31,743 nt of DNA, from positions 1 through 31,743 of IMG/VR virus record IMGVR_UViG_3300044641_001113; one strand, 5' to 3'. Below the pieces are notes generated by a model. It made no database searches. It worked only from the letters and a program-made list of their open reading frames with translations, and was not told where the DNA came from. The position numbers and the translations under genes were made by a program. Origin of the DNA: a virus. This document shows, one piece after another, positions 4,304 to 26,354 of the stretch; within the stretch, counting starts at the first letter, position 1; the number at the start of each line of letters is the position of its first letter.

Positions 4304-4966
4304 TTAGTAAACGATACTTTTTAACAACTGATATGCGTGAAATAGTTTCTCATCGATATCCTCTTTGACATCATCCAACTCGATAACTGCTTGGAATAAC
4401 TTGTGCGAATCGGGCATACGAGGGTCATAAGACACAAATATTCCGTGGTCGTTTGCAGTAGCTAACATTCCGAATTGCATTTGCCAGTAGTACTCCGGAT
4501 GCAACGATTTTAAATCTTCCGCATTGTTGATGGTTGCGTTTTTCAGGTGAATCGCAGAATTAAACGGACATTTAATCTCCAATATGCCATTACCTAACCC
4601 ATCAGGAGAATATCCGCTATATTCGTTGTATTCGATGAAAGTGAATGTTTTGCCTCCATAGTAAGTCCACTCTTCAAAAGATTGTAACGTAAATTGATGG
4701 AATGCCTCCGGTTCGTGAGTTGTTCCCCATTCCAACGCTCTGCCGAATACTTCCGGTTGTTGACCTGTTAACATAACTGCGGCTTTTTCGTAGACATAGG
4801 TCTTAGCCGTTTCGCTTAATACCTCGGATTTGTTCCGTGGGCTGCCCATCAGTTTATAAATCTCACTTGCCGTAAAGCGCGATTGTCTTAATGACAACCA
4901 CGCTTCTTCGTTTAAATTAGTACTAATCATTGTTTTATTATTATTACATTGCTGCTCTTCCTTCAT
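4304..4966 (-). CDS. YqaJ-like viral recombinase / exonuclease
   Basis: A 220-residue PD-(D/E)XK nuclease of the YqaJ type. It has the N-terminal WLSLRQSRFTASEIYKLMG motif, then WGTTHEPEA (Glu85), YSPDGL (Asp122) and the catalytic LEIKCP (Glu130, Lys132). It should digest one strand of double-stranded DNA ends so that the partner ERF protein (5210-5749) can anneal the exposed strands, as in lambda Red-type recombination. An alternative ATG at 4930 would remove 12 residues and the overlap with the upstream gene. The family call is strong. Confidence 0.9.
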   Translation of the reverse strand: MKEEQQCNNNKTMISTNLNEEAWLSLRQSRFTASEIYKLMGSPRNKSEVLSETAKTYVYEKAAVMLTGQQPEVFGRALEWGTTHEPEAFHQFTLQSFEEWTYYGGKTFTFIEYNEYSGYSPDGLGNGILEIKCPFNSAIHLKNATINNAEDLKSLHPEYYWQMQFGMLATANDHGIFVSYDPRMPDSHKLFQAVIELDDVKEDIDEKLFHAYQLLKSIVY

Positions 4967-5189
4967 ATCGTGAAATATTTATTTTGTCACGAATAAATTT
5001 AATAAATGACACATCAACTGGATTGCCATTTTTATCAATATAATGTGCCATCATATGTATTCTATGTGCGTGATATATTTTTTTAATATGTTCTCTATCA
5101 AAAAAAATGTGAATTTTCATCCCTTTTATTAAACTGCCTTTATCTTCACCTTCATAAATTACAGTAAATACTTTATATGCTTTTTTCAT
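4944..5189 (-). CDS. hypothetical protein between the recombinase genes
   Basis: About 81 residues from ATG 5189; a GTG at 5213 overlapping the ERF stop would add 8 residues. It is a basic, His-rich protein (YHAHRIHMMAHYIDKNGNP) with an alternating beta-strand N-terminus. I recognise no family. Its position between ERF and the YqaJ-type nuclease suggests a helper in recombination, which is inference only. Confidence 0.6.
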   Translation of the reverse strand: MKKAYKVFTVIYEGEDKGSLIKGMKIHIFFDREHIKKIYHAHRIHMMAHYIDKNGNPVDVSFIKFIRDKINISRYEGRAAM

Positions 5190-5209
5190 ATTATTTTTTT
5201 TTCTTGAAG

Positions 5210-5749
5210 TCACTTAATACCTTTTAACAAGGTCAAATGTTCGGGCTTCAATTGGTATTTCTTCAAGACATCCTCAATCTTACCTCCTTGTTGTATGTGC
5301 TTGGTTGCTTGTTCCCATGCCGTCATTGCCGGGTTAAGGTATGGTTTCTCTTCTACCTTTTGATTTCTTGCCATTGCCTTTTCTCCATCGTCATCCTCAT
5401 CGATGTTTAAACCAAGAGCAGCACCCAACGCATACCTACGAGCGTAAGTTATCGCAGAACCCATTGCCTGTGGGTCGTTGGCTTTAACTACTGGCATCGT
5501 GTAACTTGCCTCTATCCATTCTCCGCTATCGTGCATTAGTAACGTGGTTAAAGTATCCCCATCGGGAAACTGTGTAAACGATAACCCTGCATCGGCTAAT
5601 GGTTTTTGAATTACATCTAAGATGTTCGCCAATGATGCGTACTTCTTTTTAAAAAATGGGTTCATTGCCTCTTTCTTGACCTTGCCAATAGAGGACTGAA
5701 ACTTGCACAATGCGATTGCCAAGTTTTTAATTGATTCGGATTTATTCAT
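5210..5749 (-). CDS. erf: ERF-family single-strand annealing protein
   Basis: A 179-residue protein. Residues 1-115 match the ERF superfamily: an N-terminal helix, a KKEAMNPFFKKKYASLANI block, then MGSAITYARRYALGAALGLN at 96-115 and an acidic DEDDDGE end. The C-terminal 40 residues form a separate helical tail (PAMTAWEQATKHI), as often found in these proteins. It should pair complementary single strands together with the YqaJ-type exonuclease encoded downstream, helping to circularise or concatenate phage DNA. Confidence 0.92.
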   Translation of the reverse strand: MNKSESIKNLAIALCKFQSSIGKVKKEAMNPFFKKKYASLANILDVIQKPLADAGLSFTQFPDGDTLTTLLMHDSGEWIEASYTMPVVKANDPQAMGSAITYARRYALGAALGLNIDEDDDGEKAMARNQKVEEKPYLNPAMTAWEQATKHIQQGGKIEDVLKKYQLKPEHLTLLKGIK

Positions 5750-18488: not shown

Positions 18489-20168
18489 TTATTCTACTGT
18501 TGATACTCTTTGATTGCCGTTTACTCGTTGTTGCGCTCTTGTGATATCTCCTTCAAGGACATAAACTTTGCCTCCTCCAGTGTCTTGTGGTAGGCTTGAA
18601 CCCGTTACCATACTTGGAGCAACTCCACCAATATTAGACATACCACTTCCACTACCCATTGCACCACCGAGATTGGTATTTCCACTTTTCACTATATCTC
18701 TTGCTCTTTTAACATTGGTCAAGATTGTTGCTGCTAATGCAATGTATTTTGCTACACCTGCTAAACCACCAGTTGCTACGTTGTCAGGAGTTGGAGATTG
18801 AGTATTTCTTAAAGCACTTGATAATGCGACTCCGGTATCTGCGGCAATGGTTGCCAATGCAATACCTTTACCTAATTTACTTTGCTCTCCTGCTAATGCT
18901 ATAACTGCGTTGGCTAATTGTATTGAGTTATTATATAATTCTTTTTTGACTAACTTGTCAAATTCCAAAGTTTGAGTACCATATCTTTTATCTTCTTCTT
19001 CTGATTTTTGTTTAAACTCTTTATCTGCATTTTCTCTTAATTTATCGTAGTAAAGTTTAATTTTTAATTTTTGCGCTTCATTATTTTCAAATTGTTTTTG
19101 TTCTTCACGTTGCTGAATATCTAATTGAGCAATAATTTCACTATGTTGTTTGTTTAATTGCTGTAATTTAATATAGTGTTCTGTATTAGCCTTTGCCGCT
19201 TGAGATTTAAAAGTTACTGTATCAATATTTTGAATTTTATTCTTATTTTCAATTTCTTGCTTTAATAATTCATCCTTATGTTTTTGATTATTCTCTTTTA
19301 TAAGTTTATTTTGGTCGTTTATAAATCTTTGTCTTTCAGCATCAATAATCTCTAATTGGTCATTTAATTTTTGTTGCTGCAATATCAATTCTTGTTTCTC
19401 TTCCTCACTCATATCTAAGCGAGTTTGCATTTGTTGTTGTAAATCGGCTAATTCTGCTTGTGCTAATTTCTTTCTTTGCTCAAAAATCTTTAATTCAGTA
19501 TTTTCTTGTGTTGATAGAATAGCAATTCTCTTTTCAATTTCTGCAATTACAAGGTCATTGTTTGTTTTAAATATTTTGTATTGTGCTGCCTCTCTATAAC
19601 CTAATCCAAAGAAATCAGAAATCTTAAATCCTATTTCAGTTAAAAAATTACCTAATGTTTTTAATCCCGGTATAATTCCAACTAATCGCTCAAAATTAGC
19701 AACTACTAACAAAACAACCCCTAACATTCCAGCCATTACCTTTTGCAATGTAGATGCACTCTTAATTAATTGAGTTAATTGTTGCTGCATTTTACCCAAT
19801 CCCTCTAATCCTTGGGATAGCGCCATTGCTGCTTGTAACTTAATAAATGTTTTCTCTACGCTTTCAGTTGTACCACCAAGCAAAACCATTGCTCCTTGTG
19901 CTGCTTGGAATCCATTAACAACAGAAGATACAACCGTATTTAATTGAGCAAACTTGTCAGGATTAACGGCTGCTACTCTATCGTTAAAATCCTCCATTTG
20001 GTCTTTCAACTGAGCAACTCTCTGCGTTGCCTTTACTGCCTCAGGTGAAAACTCGCCAAATGTTAGTACGGCTTGTTGTGCCTCAACAGTTGCTTGTTTT
20101 AGTTCTGCTCTAAATCCTTTGAGGTTTGGTTGTTTAACCTCTAATTCTATGGCGGTTTTTATCGTCAT
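18489..20168 (-). CDS. tail tape measure protein
   Basis: A 559-residue protein. The N-terminal 120 residues are helical. A hydrophobic segment at about 143-165 (VMAGMLGVVLLVVANFERLV) follows, then a long Gln/Lys/Glu-rich coiled coil at about 210-400. A second hydrophobic helix block near 415-490 (LANAVIALAGEQSKLGKGIA) precedes a Gly/Ser-rich end. This is the usual tape-measure layout. At roughly 1.5 Angstrom per residue, a tail near 80 nm would be expected. The gene overlaps the 910-residue gene by 4 bases and is followed directly by the prohead protease, an unusual neighbour. Confidence 0.85.
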   Translation of the reverse strand: MTIKTAIELEVKQPNLKGFRAELKQATVEAQQAVLTFGEFSPEAVKATQRVAQLKDQMEDFNDRVAAVNPDKFAQLNTVVSSVVNGFQAAQGAMVLLGGTTESVEKTFIKLQAAMALSQGLEGLGKMQQQLTQLIKSASTLQKVMAGMLGVVLLVVANFERLVGIIPGLKTLGNFLTEIGFKISDFFGLGYREAAQYKIFKTNNDLVIAEIEKRIAILSTQENTELKIFEQRKKLAQAELADLQQQMQTRLDMSEEEKQELILQQQKLNDQLEIIDAERQRFINDQNKLIKENNQKHKDELLKQEIENKNKIQNIDTVTFKSQAAKANTEHYIKLQQLNKQHSEIIAQLDIQQREEQKQFENNEAQKLKIKLYYDKLRENADKEFKQKSEEEDKRYGTQTLEFDKLVKKELYNNSIQLANAVIALAGEQSKLGKGIALATIAADTGVALSSALRNTQSPTPDNVATGGLAGVAKYIALAATILTNVKRARDIVKSGNTNLGGAMGSGSGMSNIGGVAPSMVTGSSLPQDTGGGKVYVLEGDITRAQQRVNGNQRVSTVE

Positions 20169-22897
20169 TTTGCTGCTATTAAAAAGTAATTAGTTCCATC
20201 AGTAACTATCCAATGTGTTTCGTTGTTATTGGTCATTGTAAAAGTATTTGCCCCATCGATAGTGCTATCGTCTGCGGTGTCTATCGTAACTTGATGGTTA
20301 GAAGATGTTTTCTTGAATATCCAATGTTTTCCACTTATTCCTGCAGGGTCAGGCAAAGTGATAGTAATTGCACCTGCCGAAGTATTACACAAGAACAACC
20401 AATCTTCCACTTTTGCAGTATAGTTGGCGGTTAGTGTAGTTACTTTTCCTGCTCCAATCCATGTGGGATAAATCTTATAATTACCTACATACAATGTGTT
20501 GGATTCCTCTGCCGTATAATCAGTACAAGCAATCATTGTACTACCCGTTATTTGTTGGGGTATATAGTTACCACTTCCACCTAATACCGTGTTGTTAATG
20601 CCTTCTATTGTGGTTTCTGATGCGTTAATAATACCTTGACCGGGGTCTACATCTGAATTGTTTAAACCAATGTTTACATAAGGCATTGTTGGGGCTTCGT
20701 ATTTAGCACCCTTTGGATATGTTTCGCCATAAACGAGGATATCACTTCCAGTATCTGCACCAATTACTTTAATAGTTGGAGTAAATTTGGGTATATATTG
20801 GCTTAGTAAGAACTCACATTGATATGTGCCGTCCTCAAAAGGGTTGAAATCGATTATCTTATTCAGTTTCCAATATTGCCCCTCAAAGAAATACTGATTG
20901 GAAAACTTCATTTTGTATGCATCTGCTCCGTTCAATCTGAAATAAGCCTTTACAATCTTCGAGTTTTTGTTGGTAATCTCAAACATAAACCGATACCAAT
21001 ACTCGTTGAACAAGTTATTTGATGAATAGGAGTAGCCAGAACCTAACAAAACTTCCTTAGGCATACCAAAACACAAATCAAAATTCATCGCATTAACTGA
21101 ATCGATGTGTAGTGTTAATGGTAGCTTATTTACTTGACCATCAATTACCGCTTGTGCGCTAAATTCTTTTTCTAATAGAGAGAGAGTTACATTTGTAGTA
21201 CCTGAATAATACAAAATGCGATATCCAAATTTCTCACCGGGGATGTAGGACAACACAAAATTCTTATCGTTGCCATAACTCTTTAACTGCGTAGGTTGGA
21301 ATAGAACTTCAATCTTTTTTTCTGTCTTTACAAATTGGTTATCGACAAAAAACTTTCTACTTCCGTAGGTTTGGTTATAGTAGGATTGATAAGATTGGTT
21401 AGCATCGTCACCGCTTTCCTTGTATGTAAAGTAGTAGGGGTTTCCATCGAGTTCACCCATCGGAGTTATTTCAATGGGTTGAGAATAATCTAACTTTTTT
21501 GAAAGGTCAATTGTTGATCCGTTGTAAAAATCATCACGAGGCACAATCCTTAACTTTTTTGGAAACGATGTATCTGATTCTATGTAAAGATTAAACATCT
21601 TAACCAATGACATCATGAAATCTGATTGTTTGCCCTCTGAGTTAAAGAATTGAGAAAAGTCAACCTTCGTATCCTTACCAAATGTAAACGCTGCTGTGTT
21701 GTTGTAGAATTTAGCCCCATCAATCGTTGCAACAAAATCTCCTATTAATCGGTTGGTTGGTCTTTGGTTATCGTAAACCCTTGACACAATAATAGAAACT
21801 TGGTCATTTGTATAGCAATAGATGTTTGGAAATACTAAAACCTCACCCATAAAGGTAAAGACATTAGCCATCTCGCAGTAAATCGTTGCCGTTGCTCTAA
21901 TGTGATTGTTTACATACACCGCGAAGGTCATGTAAATTTCCTTATCCCCATCAAATCCGTAGTCGGTAGTATCTAACGAGCCTTCTAATTGCAAGAAAAA
22001 GGTATAACTACCACCACCGGGTACGGTATAAATTCCTGTACTTGGGTTATAATTGTTGCCAGTATCAAAATTACCACCCGTAGAATCGTTATCAAATACT
22101 ATTTTTGTGGTATAGTTGGCAATTGTTTGTGCAGTAGTCCTCTCCGCTTTAAACAATCGGTTAGTCAATATCGGGCTACCAACAGACAAACCAGCAGGAG
22201 CAGGGATAATTAAGCGTTTAAATCTATCTGTATTGAAGAAAGAATCAGCAGTATAAGAATACCCATAAGTATTAAATATCTTATCCACTATTGTCTTTGC
22301 GTACAAACAAGGAGTTACATCTTCCAAGAACCAAATCCAATGCGTTCCACTCTTTCTGTTTTTCTTATCAATTAATGCATATACATAACCCTTACCATAT
22401 TCAAATGCTTGTGTAGCGTTGTTAACTATTATAGAAGTATCCCAAGAGTTCTTTACGTTGTTGATTGTTAAATCGTGGTTATACTCAGAAAAATCTAACT
22501 CGTAAAGATTCTTTTCGGAGATTGTTGTAAAGAGTTCGGCAGTTTGTCCGTGGATTGAACATTCATAGATAATATCCGCTTGGTCTGTTACGCTGATGTT
22601 TAACAACCGAATGAATCCTCTAATCTGCTCTAACCCATCAGCCAATACAACGGCATCCGCTTTCTTATTAGGGTTAAAGTTGGTATTAAATTGAGTATCA
22701 CTTAGAACGGTATGCTCTATCTCGAAGATATGACCGAATATCTTGTTATTAGTTTTTGTACCGGGGATTGAAATTGTTTTAGTCCAATCGCTTGACCGTT
22801 TCTCTGGTTCTCTTATGTCCGCAATTTCCTTGTTGATAAGGATTCCAAAATCTTCTGAAAGGTCTATTCGTTGGTTATTAATTAAAACATCTATCAT
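20165..22897 (-). CDS. large tail tip / baseplate protein
   Basis: A 910-residue protein, the largest of the genome. The N-terminus (INNQRIDLSEDFGILINKEI, then RSSDWTKTISIPGTKTN) is the pattern I know from large tail-tip proteins of Bacteroidota phages. The middle is beta-rich. The last 120 residues form a separate domain (WLFLCNTSAGAITITLPDP ... HQVTIDTADDSTIDGANTF) of the kind that caps phage fibres. It probably forms part of the tail tip and carries a binding or trimerising end. It overlaps the tape measure and the next tail gene by 4 bases each. Confidence 0.7.
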   Translation of the reverse strand: MIDVLINNQRIDLSEDFGILINKEIADIREPEKRSSDWTKTISIPGTKTNNKIFGHIFEIEHTVLSDTQFNTNFNPNKKADAVVLADGLEQIRGFIRLLNISVTDQADIIYECSIHGQTAELFTTISEKNLYELDFSEYNHDLTINNVKNSWDTSIIVNNATQAFEYGKGYVYALIDKKNRKSGTHWIWFLEDVTPCLYAKTIVDKIFNTYGYSYTADSFFNTDRFKRLIIPAPAGLSVGSPILTNRLFKAERTTAQTIANYTTKIVFDNDSTGGNFDTGNNYNPSTGIYTVPGGGSYTFFLQLEGSLDTTDYGFDGDKEIYMTFAVYVNNHIRATATIYCEMANVFTFMGEVLVFPNIYCYTNDQVSIIVSRVYDNQRPTNRLIGDFVATIDGAKFYNNTAAFTFGKDTKVDFSQFFNSEGKQSDFMMSLVKMFNLYIESDTSFPKKLRIVPRDDFYNGSTIDLSKKLDYSQPIEITPMGELDGNPYYFTYKESGDDANQSYQSYYNQTYGSRKFFVDNQFVKTEKKIEVLFQPTQLKSYGNDKNFVLSYIPGEKFGYRILYYSGTTNVTLSLLEKEFSAQAVIDGQVNKLPLTLHIDSVNAMNFDLCFGMPKEVLLGSGYSYSSNNLFNEYWYRFMFEITNKNSKIVKAYFRLNGADAYKMKFSNQYFFEGQYWKLNKIIDFNPFEDGTYQCEFLLSQYIPKFTPTIKVIGADTGSDILVYGETYPKGAKYEAPTMPYVNIGLNNSDVDPGQGIINASETTIEGINNTVLGGSGNYIPQQITGSTMIACTDYTAEESNTLYVGNYKIYPTWIGAGKVTTLTANYTAKVEDWLFLCNTSAGAITITLPDPAGISGKHWIFKKTSSNHQVTIDTADDSTIDGANTFTMTNNNETHWIVTDGTNYFLIAAK

Positions 22898-24036
22898 CTG
22901 CGTTGTTTTTTGTCTACAAAACTAAACTCAATATCTAATTGCAAGTTGAACATCTTATCGTTAATCCACTTTTTCTCTTCGTACATTGAATTGGTTATGT
23001 TCACGGCTTGTAAAGTTGTGCCATCCCATAAATAAACTACGGGTGATTCTACCAATTCTCTCAACCAAATTGACTCGGTATCGGTTATCCAGTTAGAGAA
23101 TAGTGTTAATTTCTGTTTACTCTCCTCGTAATACTGAACTGTATTGAATGAATCCGTTGTATATGTATATGTGTTCGGTGTTATATTAAGCGTGTATGGA
23201 TTCTGTCTGAATGTCTTTCTGCTTATGTCGTAGCTTGATTTGCTAACTCGATTAAATCGGAAAGAATCAAATCCACCTAATCTGTTTAAGAAAAACAAAT
23301 CGTATGTTTCGTACTTTGAACATTCGTCCTTAATATAAAATCGATATGTTTCTGAAATCTGCGCTCCATCAACATCCCGTAGATAGCAATCGAAATAAGT
23401 TGCACCTGCTGGAGTTGTTAAGTTAACAGGCACTCTTATCATTCTCACATTAGGCACATTGATTGTGGATGTGGTATTGTCTGAGTAAACTATTCTTAAG
23501 TTGGTAGCAGCTCCTCTTAATGCGTATAACCACACTTTTTGCGTTCTGTGGATTGTTTGGCTTCTTACCGATGTCAAAAACTTACGGCTTGAATTATTGG
23601 CTGCGTAGGTATCTGAATCAAACGAAACAAAAGTGATAGGATTTAAGGCAGCGTTCCAAACCGTTCCACTTGCAGAGGTTAGGTTAAGATATTCGGTAAC
23701 TGTACCCGTTGCACTTGCAGAATATTCTTCTCCAAACTTAACCGAGTAATCTTGAAAGGAATTAGTGCAACCACTTGCAGCGGTATCGCTATACTTGAAA
23801 TCGTGAGTTGTGTAAGATTCTAACAATCTACCAATGTTAAATACCCCTTTGTTGTTGCTACCGAAATAGATGGGTACTTTTAGTTTTGCAATTGTGGATG
23901 CATCGACTACTACCTCGGCAATAAATTTAAAATTGGATGAATTATAAACTGCACCGCTTGATTCACTTACAACATAATTAACATCGTTGTAAGATGGGGT
24001 AAAAGTTTCTGGCGATTGGTTAACTGATAAACTCAC
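22894..24036 (-). CDS. tail tip / distal tail protein candidate
   Basis: A 380-residue beta-rich protein (FTPSYNDVNYVVSESSGAVY ... KFIAEVVVD ... VPIYFGSNNKGVFNIGRLL; near the end YEESKQKLTLFSNWIT and EFSFVDKKQRR). The paired N- and C-terminal beta blocks with a long middle resemble distal-tail-like ring proteins, but I do not see a definite family signature. It lies directly before the 910-residue tail protein, with which it probably forms the tail tip. Confidence 0.6.
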   Translation of the reverse strand: MSLSVNQSPETFTPSYNDVNYVVSESSGAVYNSSNFKFIAEVVVDASTIAKLKVPIYFGSNNKGVFNIGRLLESYTTHDFKYSDTAASGCTNSFQDYSVKFGEEYSASATGTVTEYLNLTSASGTVWNAALNPITFVSFDSDTYAANNSSRKFLTSVRSQTIHRTQKVWLYALRGAATNLRIVYSDNTTSTINVPNVRMIRVPVNLTTPAGATYFDCYLRDVDGAQISETYRFYIKDECSKYETYDLFFLNRLGGFDSFRFNRVSKSSYDISRKTFRQNPYTLNITPNTYTYTTDSFNTVQYYEESKQKLTLFSNWITDTESIWLRELVESPVVYLWDGTTLQAVNITNSMYEEKKWINDKMFNLQLDIEFSFVDKKQRR

Positions 24037-24050
24037 AATATAAAATAGTT

Positions 24051-24434
24051 TTAAAATTGATGCGTCCTAATCCCACACTTTTCTAAAAATTCTAATCCCA
24101 ATCTATCGCGATATTGTTCAATATAGTTGAACTCTACTATCCCACTTTGAATAATCATTTTAGCGCACTCTGTGCAACAACTATGCGTGGCATACATTAC
24201 CGCACCATCGGTTGAAATTGTGCTACGTGCAGCCTTTAAAATAGCGTTTGCCTCTGCGTGTATTACTTCTGGTTTGGTTACTCCATTATCCTCGCAATCG
24301 TTGCACCATCCATGCGGTGTACCATTGTACCCAAATGCGACTATATTTCTATCTTTTACTATAATTGCGCCTACTTTTAATCTATTGCACTTACTTTGAT
24401 TTGCTATTATTGGAAGAAGTTCTTTGTAAATCAT
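24051..24434 (-). CDS. deoxycytidylate (dCMP) deaminase
   Basis: A 127-residue zinc deaminase. Zinc ligands: His59 in HAEANAI (with catalytic Glu61) and Cys87/Cys90 in HSCCTEC. The residue before Cys87 is Cys rather than the usual Pro. A second CNDC pair at 44-47 and GYNGTPHGW are typical of the dCMP deaminase family. It converts dCMP to dUMP, the substrate of the thymidylate synthase ThyX encoded at 29.9-30.5 kb. Its ATG overlaps the stop of the frameshifted chaperone frame (ATGA), so translation is probably coupled. It is a metabolic gene within the tail operon. Confidence 0.9.
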   Translation of the reverse strand: MIYKELLPIIANQSKCNRLKVGAIIVKDRNIVAFGYNGTPHGWCNDCEDNGVTKPEVIHAEANAILKAARSTISTDGAVMYATHSCCTECAKMIIQSGIVEFNYIEQYRDRLGLEFLEKCGIRTHQF

Positions 24435-24730
24435 AACATCTCATTAATTGCTGCAACCATATAAACTTGATATCCTTTCGATGCTGCTTGTTCTAAGCGT
24501 TTCTGTTGCTCTTTTTTGATGGTCTTGTAAAATGCCATTGTGTTAAGAAACTCTATCAACTCCATTTGTAAGAAGAAATCCCACTTGGTTCTATCTCCTT
24601 TCGCTAATCGGTTAATTAGTTCGAGCCATCCTTTGGCTGCCCCTGTTCCTTCATTTGTTGGCTCAGCTGATTCAGTTCCTTGTTCAAAAAGGACAGGGTA
24701 GTTTTCAATAATTCGGGATAAACTTTCGAA
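24431..24730 (-). CDS. tail assembly chaperone, -1 frameshift extension (T-like part)
   Basis: An open frame of 99 codons without a convincing start of its own. It begins at the slippery T9 run and ends with a TGA overlapping the deaminase ATG. Its text has GAAKGWLELINRLAKGDRT and FFLQMELIEFLNTMAFYKTIK, resembling second parts of tail chaperones. It fills what would otherwise be a 181-base gap. A -1 shift at 24730-24737 would fuse it to the upstream 184-residue protein and give a product of about 246 residues, as in lambda G-GT. Confidence 0.75.
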   Translation of the reverse strand, partial: FESLSRIIENYPVLFEQGTESAEPTNEGTGAAKGWLELINRLAKGDRTKWDFFLQMELIEFLNTMAFYKTIKKEQQKRLEQAASKGYQVYMVAAINEML

Positions 24731-25170
24731 AAAAAAAGCGCATAATTGTAGGCGATGTCAAACTTTAAGGATGCAAAATCTGTCACTTTCCTTTCAAAAT
24801 TAGTGATGTCTTCCTTTTTTCTCTTGCCAAATACATTCACTTCATAGGATAACAACGCTATAATCTTATCCAATGATTCGATAATATCTCCGTTAAATAC
24901 TTCTTGTAGTTCAATCCATTGGTGTGCCTTTAATTCTAATGGGTTTGTTATTAACCTATATCGTTTGCCTTTATGCCTAAACTTGAATTTTGGGGTTGTG
25001 TCTTTGGGGATAAACTCAATCTTTCTGAATTCCTCTAATATCTCATCCATAGGCATCAACTCGATGTCGTCTATGGTCTGCTCAGTCATAATAGCCAACG
25101 CCTCGATTTTCTTATCGATTGTGTTTAGTTCGCCTAATGCGTGTAGTTCTTGTATCTGTGATATTCTCAT
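24616..25170 (-). CDS. tail assembly chaperone (G-like part)
   Basis: A 184-residue protein, helical in its C-terminal half, with PKFKFRHKGKRYRLIT and LKAHQWIELQEVFNGDIIESL in the middle. It ends with a Gln-rich tail (KELNQLSQQMKEQGQ) that lies after the slippery site. Position after the terminase and before tail-tip and tape-measure genes fits the tail-assembly chaperone. In tailed phages this usually exists in a short form and a frameshifted long form that binds the tape measure. Its ATG overlaps the terminase stop. Confidence 0.7.
   Translation of the reverse strand: MRISQIQELHALGELNTIDKKIEALAIMTEQTIDDIELMPMDEILEEFRKIEFIPKDTTPKFKFRHKGKRYRLITNPLELKAHQWIELQEVFNGDIIESLDKIIALLSYEVNVFGKRKKEDITNFERKVTDFASLKFDIAYNYALFFSKVYPELLKTTLSFLNKELNQLSQQMKEQGQPKDGSN
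24729..24737 (-). promoter_or_regulatory. -1 ribosomal frameshift site (slippery T run)
   Basis: On the minus strand nine T residues lie in codons CTT TTT TTT TCG. This provides the heptamer T TTT TTT with perfect re-pairing after a -1 slip. The -1 frame beyond it stays open for 99 codons. Confidence 0.75.
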
Positions 25171-26354
25171 ACGAAAAAAAATGTTCCGGGTTTATTTTTG
25201 TGGATGCACTCTACAGCTAACGCCAAAGAGTTGACGCAGTCATCGTGCAATCCTGATGGGGCTGAATACTTTACACCCGATTGGGTATATTCATACTCAA
25301 AGTTCTGCATTTCGTACCCGATGGGGTCTAACGGGAAAAATACTTTATTTTGATGGACATGAGCAACTAATTGCTCCATGATTTGTTGCTTAGAAATCGA
25401 TGTGTATTTAAATCCTTGAACCTTTGGACAACTTCTTTGTATCTGCTCAACAATTGGGTCACCTACTCCGGTTGAGTCAATCACGCATGGAGTATTACCA
25501 ATCAATTGTACAATCTTGTTTAGCGTTAAATTCCAATCGCTTTGAAACCTCTCTACATAGCATACTTCTTTGTTGGAGTTAAGCCCAGTTATTACCGTGT
25601 AATCCGTGTACTTTGCTAAGTCAATTCCATACGCCACAACTTGACCGCTCGACAATGGTCTAATACATCGTTCAATGTTTTCTAATCCAAATGGGTTAGA
25701 TTTATCGTCTGCAGGTTCTGCCAAATACAATTCATCAAATACGTGTTTGGGCAAATCTCGTTTGGCTTGTTCAATCTCCTCAAAGGATAATATCCCCTCT
25801 TTGGCTGCATCGTATGCGGTTATCTTAAAGAACTTATAATCCGCTTCACCTTGCTTTGCTCGTTCCCCTAATTTGTAGAACCAATTCTTCTTACCCTTTA
25901 CGTTTCCGATTAGTTTACATTTGCCTCGAGTAGCGGTTAAGGTAGAACGCAACGCATACCAGCTCTCTTCCCTTGCTCGTGATGCCTCATCAAATACCGC
26001 TGCATATACATCCTCACCATAAAGGTTATCGGGGTTTTCTGCGGATTTAAATTCTATCCTTGCACCATTGGGTAGGATATGCACTAACTTGGATTCGTTG
26101 GATTGGAAGAAGTCACGCTCACTTACTTGTGATTTCATCCGCCTATATGCTATCTCTGCTTGTTTGTATACCGGAGCAACCCACCAACACGATTGATTGT
26201 CTTTAAGTGTTAAGGCTTGTTCAAATAGCCAAATAATATGTGATGCAGTTTTACCCGTCTTGGTTGATGCAGCGGTAATAGTGTATCGTTCGGGAGCGTC
26301 TAATATCTCCCGTTGGTAGTTTGTTAAATGCGGTCTGATGTACTCAATTTCCAT
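25167..26354 (-). CDS. terL: terminase large subunit
   Basis: A 395-residue packaging motor with both domains. ATPase: Walker A-like AASTKTGKT at 28-36 and Walker B YAAVFDEAS with Asp122/Glu123. RNase H-like nuclease: GIDLAKYTD (Asp245), VIDSTGVGD (Asp293) and LHDDCVNSLALA (Asp371/372). It cuts and pumps DNA into the prohead. No portal gene follows; the chaperone and tail genes do, while the portal lies at 10-12 kb. The stop overlaps the chaperone ATG. The assignment is firm. Confidence 0.96.
   Translation of the reverse strand: MEIEYIRPHLTNYQREILDAPERYTITAASTKTGKTASHIIWLFEQALTLKDNQSCWWVAPVYKQAEIAYRRMKSQVSERDFFQSNESKLVHILPNGARIEFKSAENPDNLYGEDVYAAVFDEASRAREESWYALRSTLTATRGKCKLIGNVKGKKNWFYKLGERAKQGEADYKFFKITAYDAAKEGILSFEEIEQAKRDLPKHVFDELYLAEPADDKSNPFGLENIERCIRPLSSGQVVAYGIDLAKYTDYTVITGLNSNKEVCYVERFQSDWNLTLNKIVQLIGNTPCVIDSTGVGDPIVEQIQRSCPKVQGFKYTSISKQQIMEQLVAHVHQNKVFFPLDPIGYEMQNFEYEYTQSGVKYSAPSGLHDDCVNSLALAVECIHKNKPGTFFFV

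Follow-up and report, generated by a model that had tools for sequence, protein, structure and literature searches.

The tail assembly chaperones gpG and gpGT of phage lambda are produced through low-level -1 frameshifting, G binding the tape measure and T the tail tube, and chaperones of this G/GT type share little sequence (PMC5009743). Programmed transcriptional slippage is a second described route to two products, as in Thermus thermophilus dnaX and IS elements, which use 9A or 9T runs; nine is also the length at which many bacterial genomes show an avoidance of A/T runs, a pattern interpreted as selection against slippage (PMC1088944). The gene analysed here lies on the minus strand of the 31,743-base virus record IMGVR_UViG_3300044641_001113, which was studied over its whole length and is called the window. 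Its layout resembles that of lambda gpG/gpGT in the short zero-frame product and the longer -1 fusion, in a slip site near the end of the first ORF, in the presence of a tape-measure-like gene downstream, and in that no strong structure was found downstream of the slip site. It differs in its T-homopolymer slip site, in its place directly after the terminase gene with other genes before the tape measure, and in having no detectable sequence similarity to the lambda proteins (PMC5009743). With the genes that slip on 9A/9T (PMC1088944), it shares a nine-base homopolymer and two product lengths; unlike them, its family includes relatives that keep both frames with T6, 19 of 22 with an in-phase heptamer. 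We classified the gene among the programmed -1 frameshift genes, with a G/GT-like layout (Table 1).

Table 1. Coordinates of the frameshift gene, its slip site, and neighbouring genes in the window
Feature	Positions	Strand	Evidence
Terminase large subunit gene, directly upstream, ATGA overlap	25167..26354	-	Terminase_6N, E 3e-9; phrog_2, E 9e-35
Zero-frame ORF, G-like product, 184 aa	24616..25170	-	Translation; relatives at 33-61% identity; pN/pS 0.075 upstream of the slip site
Nine-T slippery run, codons CTT TTT TTT TCG	24729..24737	-	Sequence; T9/T10 in 135/157 distinct genes (window's branch), T9 or longer in 46/46 (remote branch)
In-phase heptamer T_TTT_TTT, proposed point of tandem -1 slippage	24730..24736	-	Reading phase; T_TTT_TTY in 154/157 distinct genes
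-1-frame coding region, T-like helical domain	24431..24735	-	pN/pS 0.056 in the exclusive part; AlphaFold model all-helical, pLDDT 73
Dual-coding stretch, from slip site to zero-frame stop	24616..24729	-	Synonymous divergence falling from 0.33/0.31 to 0.12/0.09
dCMP deaminase gene, directly after the frameshift gene	24051-24434		Start ATG at 24434
p380, next syntenic gene	22894..24036	-	Order common to relatives
p910, syntenic gene	20165..22897	-	Order common to relatives
Tape-measure-like protein, 559 aa	18489..20168	-	phrog_1538, tail length tape measure protein, E 1.9e-4; order common to relatives

The preliminary description had reported a nine-T run in frame CTT TTT TTT TCG, followed by a -1 frame that stays open for 99 codons, yields a fusion of about 246 residues, ends in an overlap with the next gene, and has no convincing start of its own. 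All of these readings were confirmed. The run is exactly nine bases long on the minus strand, and the -1 frame is open up to its TGA stop (24433..24431), which shares bases with the start ATG of the following gene (24434). The fusion has 246 residues, of which approximately the first 147 are common with the 184-aa product. In the window, the earliest possible start (ATG, GTG, or TTG) that the -1 frame offers past the slip site is codon +57, which is within the conserved domain. The sequence is AT-rich, and two A/T runs of at least nine bases were observed in the window against 3.5 expected; thus, the T9 run is unremarkable by itself. A -1 frame open for 99 codons is unusual for the window (0 of 3774 positions across the 12 other window genes).

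Scanning with the zero-frame protein retrieved eight loci of 61-63% identity, all of which had an identically phased T9 and a -1 domain with the same terminal residues. The scan with the -1 domain yielded 187 relatives, of which 80 were kept. All 80 had two intact frames and, at the same codon, a run of T9 or T10; when both phenylalanine codons were left free (TTY TTY) in a pattern scan, only TTT TTT occurred among the 80 loci listed. One pattern scan for relatives in bacterial genomes found none. More distant phages were reached by scans anchored on the terminase, and profiles of both domains were run on all fetched loci, the copies including overlapping fetches of the same contigs. In this profile survey, the two domains stood in the -1 relation in 405 of the 405 copies having both, and every one of the 21 unpaired loci ran off a contig end.

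The 405 copies were reduced to 157 distinct genes, the window's gene included. Their slip sites were T9 (96 genes), T10 (39), T_TTT_TTC with T6 (19), and T_TTT_TCT (3), so that the in-phase T_TTT_TTY deviated only in the last three genes. The 19 genes, referred to as T6 clade A, have the site TCT TTT TTC TTG, in which T_TTT_TTC is in phase. The three genes of T6 clade B (L232, L234, and L359) have the site GCA GTT TTT TCT TTG with both frames intact; with GTTTTTTCT, they retain only T6 and no canonical X_XXY_YYZ heptamer, and full re-pairing is possible for the P-site tRNA only. The T10 clade arose by the substitution of TCG to TTG, with no indel. In the maximum-likelihood tree, the two T6 forms were sister clades (97/96), and T9 was present in all other deep branches. 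T9 may be the ancestral state; the tree root is arbitrary, and the remote branch described below lends this reading help.

The predicted structure of the N-domain (pLDDT 80) was used as a Foldseek query and gave 33 viral matches with E up to 1e-3. Nearly all were uncharacterised, and one was a protein of the Nonlabens phage P12024S; the cultured relatives were thus found through the fold search. This protein, gp38, is encoded directly after the terminase gene and contains T9 in ATA CTT TTT TTT TAT; its -1 frame spans 84 codons, part of which is annotated as a separate gene, gp39. The same T9 site is present in P12024L. Relatives of the P12024S gene at 25-99% identity comprised 46 distinct genes in 11 clusters (80%), and an in-phase run of T9 or longer and the -1 domain were present in all 46, four of which end at a contig edge; the terminase was upstream in 55 of 62 loci. 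Matched as a single sequence to the profile of the window family, P12024S gp38 did not reach significance; when each branch was represented by a profile, the two matched over the N-part (E 5e-9), the C-part (7e-10), and the whole fusion (8e-17), and the swapped-domain controls of this comparison were negative. The genes of P12024S and P12024L (gp38/gp39 and gp40/gp41) are therefore like the window's gene in their place after the terminase, in-phase T9, -1 domain, and profile homology, and unlike it in their remote sequence, their annotation as two hypothetical proteins, and a next codon of TAT rather than TCG. The family's only listing is phrog_32199, of unknown function, which covers the remote branch.

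A weak fold match to the N-domain (TM 0.33) was also noted for gp10 of Flavobacterium phage 6H (L437:10047-10927), which has an in-phase T_TTT_TTC before its stop; its -1 frame stops two codons past this site, and an unannotated -1-frame ORF follows that stop. Three BFVD proteins of 258-267 aa (A0A516L5A8, A0A516L611, and A0A6J5N0W0) matched the N-domain model and, weakly, the C-domain model. Judging from these model matches, there may be remote homologues in which a single frame encodes both domains.

The rates of substitution were calculated from 1576 within-clade pairs, which are not independent, and the values are descriptive. The zero-only part had a pN/pS of 0.075. For the -1-only part, the value was 0.056 in the -1 frame, as opposed to 1.9 and 5.4 in the other two frames. 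Synonymous divergence was 0.33 and 0.31 outside the overlap and only 0.12 and 0.09 within it. The low pN/pS in each frame and the reduced synonymous change in the overlap indicate that both frames code for protein, with the -1 domain under strong purifying selection.

Comparison of the relatives showed that the two-frame coding is conserved, that the frames invariably join by a -1 step at one and the same codon, and that a slip-prone sequence is kept. The preliminary description had proposed that the slippery site be compared in relatives and had named the fusion of both frames in one frame, or the loss of the second frame, as findings that would speak against it. T_TTT_TTY was found in 154/157 and 46/46 distinct genes, no gene among the 157 + 46 had the frames fused, and the second frame was absent only from the 21 loci ending at a contig edge. 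As comparative evidence, the conservation across the 157 + 46 distinct genes is decisive for the observation. Within the conserved G/GT mechanism that had been claimed, the -1 two-frame coding stood (405/405), and the tail-chaperone function and ribosomal slippage are what we infer from it and from the evidence below.

Slippage most likely occurs at T_TTT_TTT by the ribosome. Most translation would end in the zero frame and give the 184-aa G-like protein, while a fraction of the ribosomes would slip back one base at T_TTT_TTT (24736..24730), where both Phe tRNAs could re-pair with UUU, and continue in the -1 frame to yield the 246-aa G-T fusion with its helical C-terminal domain. At the terminase end of the same genomes, three Phe codons switch freely between TTT and TTC; thus, codon habit alone does not explain how uniform the slip site is. 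Many programmed -1 frameshift genes, though not all, have a stimulatory RNA structure downstream; here, modelling of structures other than pseudoknots gave no shared energy signal in 15 representatives. The length of the homopolymer, which the preliminary description had stressed as exceeding the usual heptamer, was upheld as to the nine T's and only partly as to its significance. The T's in excess of seven say little about selection on run length, since the first and last T follow mostly from the amino acids encoded, and the T6 clade manages without the longer run; where the frames join, the window and most relatives have a homopolymer of at least about nine bases, but 22 distinct genes have T6. 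The eighth T of the remote branch is silent in both frames, yet it is T in 11/11 clusters. It was considered as proof of run-length selection and was dropped, as local codon usage gives T in about 85% and 11/11 is not significant.

The gene product is a probable tail assembly chaperone, a reading based on the G/GT-like layout, the synteny with the tape-measure-like gene, and a weak fold match. By analogy with lambda gpG/gpGT, G would coat the tape measure and GT would recruit the tail tube. Sequence searches of Pfam, PHROGs, and PDB gave no usable match for the frameshift gene and no named chaperone family, and BLAST of the window's frameshift proteins and those of two relatives against the INPHARED phages gave no match. 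When the N-domain model was aligned with solved structures using VIA-align, the HK97 tail assembly chaperone (PDB 2ob9) ranked first, with a weak Z of 3.3 over 52 residues (rmsd 2.6) and 6% sequence identity; the Z is too low to claim a shared fold. Foldseek of the same model against PDB gave no significant match, and the fold search with the C-domain model gave nothing significant. The gene is on the same strand as the tape-measure-like gene and upstream of it, adjoining the terminase gene with p380 and p910 in between, and the order of terminase, frameshift gene, p380, p910, and tape-measure-like gene was kept in the relatives.

Taken as a whole, the best explanation is that a tailed phage, probably one infecting Bacteroidota, carries a ribosomal programmed -1 frameshift gene whose products would be tail assembly chaperones (probability of roughly 0.78). 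The rival readings differ in what they make of the frame join. If the two frames were separate genes, the -1 frame would be translated from its own start codon with no frameshift, as the annotation of part of the P12024S -1 frame as gp39 implies. Some relatives have TTG at codon +31 to +37 or GTG/ATG at -17 in this frame. However, these start positions differ among relatives, the window has no -1-frame start before codon +57, and the -1 frame is conserved from the T run itself onwards; an independent second gene was rejected, as there is no conserved start, and is very improbable. An ordinary gene split by a sequencing or assembly error is scarcely credible, error-prone as homopolymers are, given that hundreds of independent assemblies and two cultured-phage genomes concur, that the T6 and T10 clades share the same -1 relation, and that the overlap has a dual-coding signature; with 0/405 copies fused, this explanation was also rejected.

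Programmed transcriptional slippage, in which RNA polymerase would add one U (or drop two) on T9/T10 and ordinary translation would yield the fusion, would account for the same two frames. T9 is long enough for polymerase slippage, the prevalence of long runs (T9/T10 in 135 of the 157 distinct genes, T9 or longer throughout the 46 of the remote branch) fits it, and clade B does without a canonical heptamer. The 22 distinct genes that keep both frames with T6 only, 19 of them with in-phase T_TTT_TTC, argue against it, as does the setting of the first and last T mostly by the encoded residues. We favour the ribosome because T6 clade A keeps the in-phase T_TTT_TTC in a run too short for typical polymerase slippage, and we consider the transcriptional mechanism unlikely. 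There is a comparably small chance that T9/T10 works wholly or partly by RNA-polymerase slippage, with transcriptional recoding in most lineages and ribosomal recoding in the T6 clade; if true, this would be a natural switch of recoding mechanism inside one gene family, a tail-chaperone pair. A further alternative accepts the programmed frameshift and assigns the gene another role, for example as a packaging or head-assembly factor. Its position adjoining the terminase gene in both branches and the lack of a sequence match to any chaperone family are consistent with such a role, which we consider doubtful while granting it some weight. The G/GT-like two-product layout with the usual sizes, the p380, p910, and tape-measure-like genes that follow, and the top solved-structure match, a weak one, to a tail chaperone point instead to tail assembly.

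The frameshift gene of the window is followed by a dCMP deaminase gene, whereas the relatives examined have p380 after a gap of variable length and no deaminase in that position; hence, the deaminase gene appears to have been inserted locally. At its end, the terminase gene carries a run of T8 (25174-25181) with an in-phase T_TTT_TTC, from which the -1 frame continues into the frame of the frameshift gene. This run was considered as a second slip site and dropped, as the relatives encode the same Phe residues with TTC and the run is not kept.

The matches to Nonlabens and Alistipes phages suggest that the host of the window phage is probably a member of Bacteroidota. The mechanism is of a known kind and the family is undescribed; no description of the T9 site was found in the openly licensed papers searched. 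The analysis probably identifies the tail chaperone for a large, unannotated, and mostly uncultured phage group, whose -1 half is missed or split by gene callers, and with it a pair of 'hypothetical' genes in either of the cultured Nonlabens phages becomes a single frameshift gene. The family also provides a natural series of sites (T10, T9, T6 with T_TTT_TTC, and T6 with T_TTT_TCT), which would allow ribosomal and transcriptional slippage to be distinguished experimentally. The other nine-base A/T run in the window (5194-5202, A9 on the minus strand) lies near the start of the ORF at 4944-5213, which also has a later ATG.
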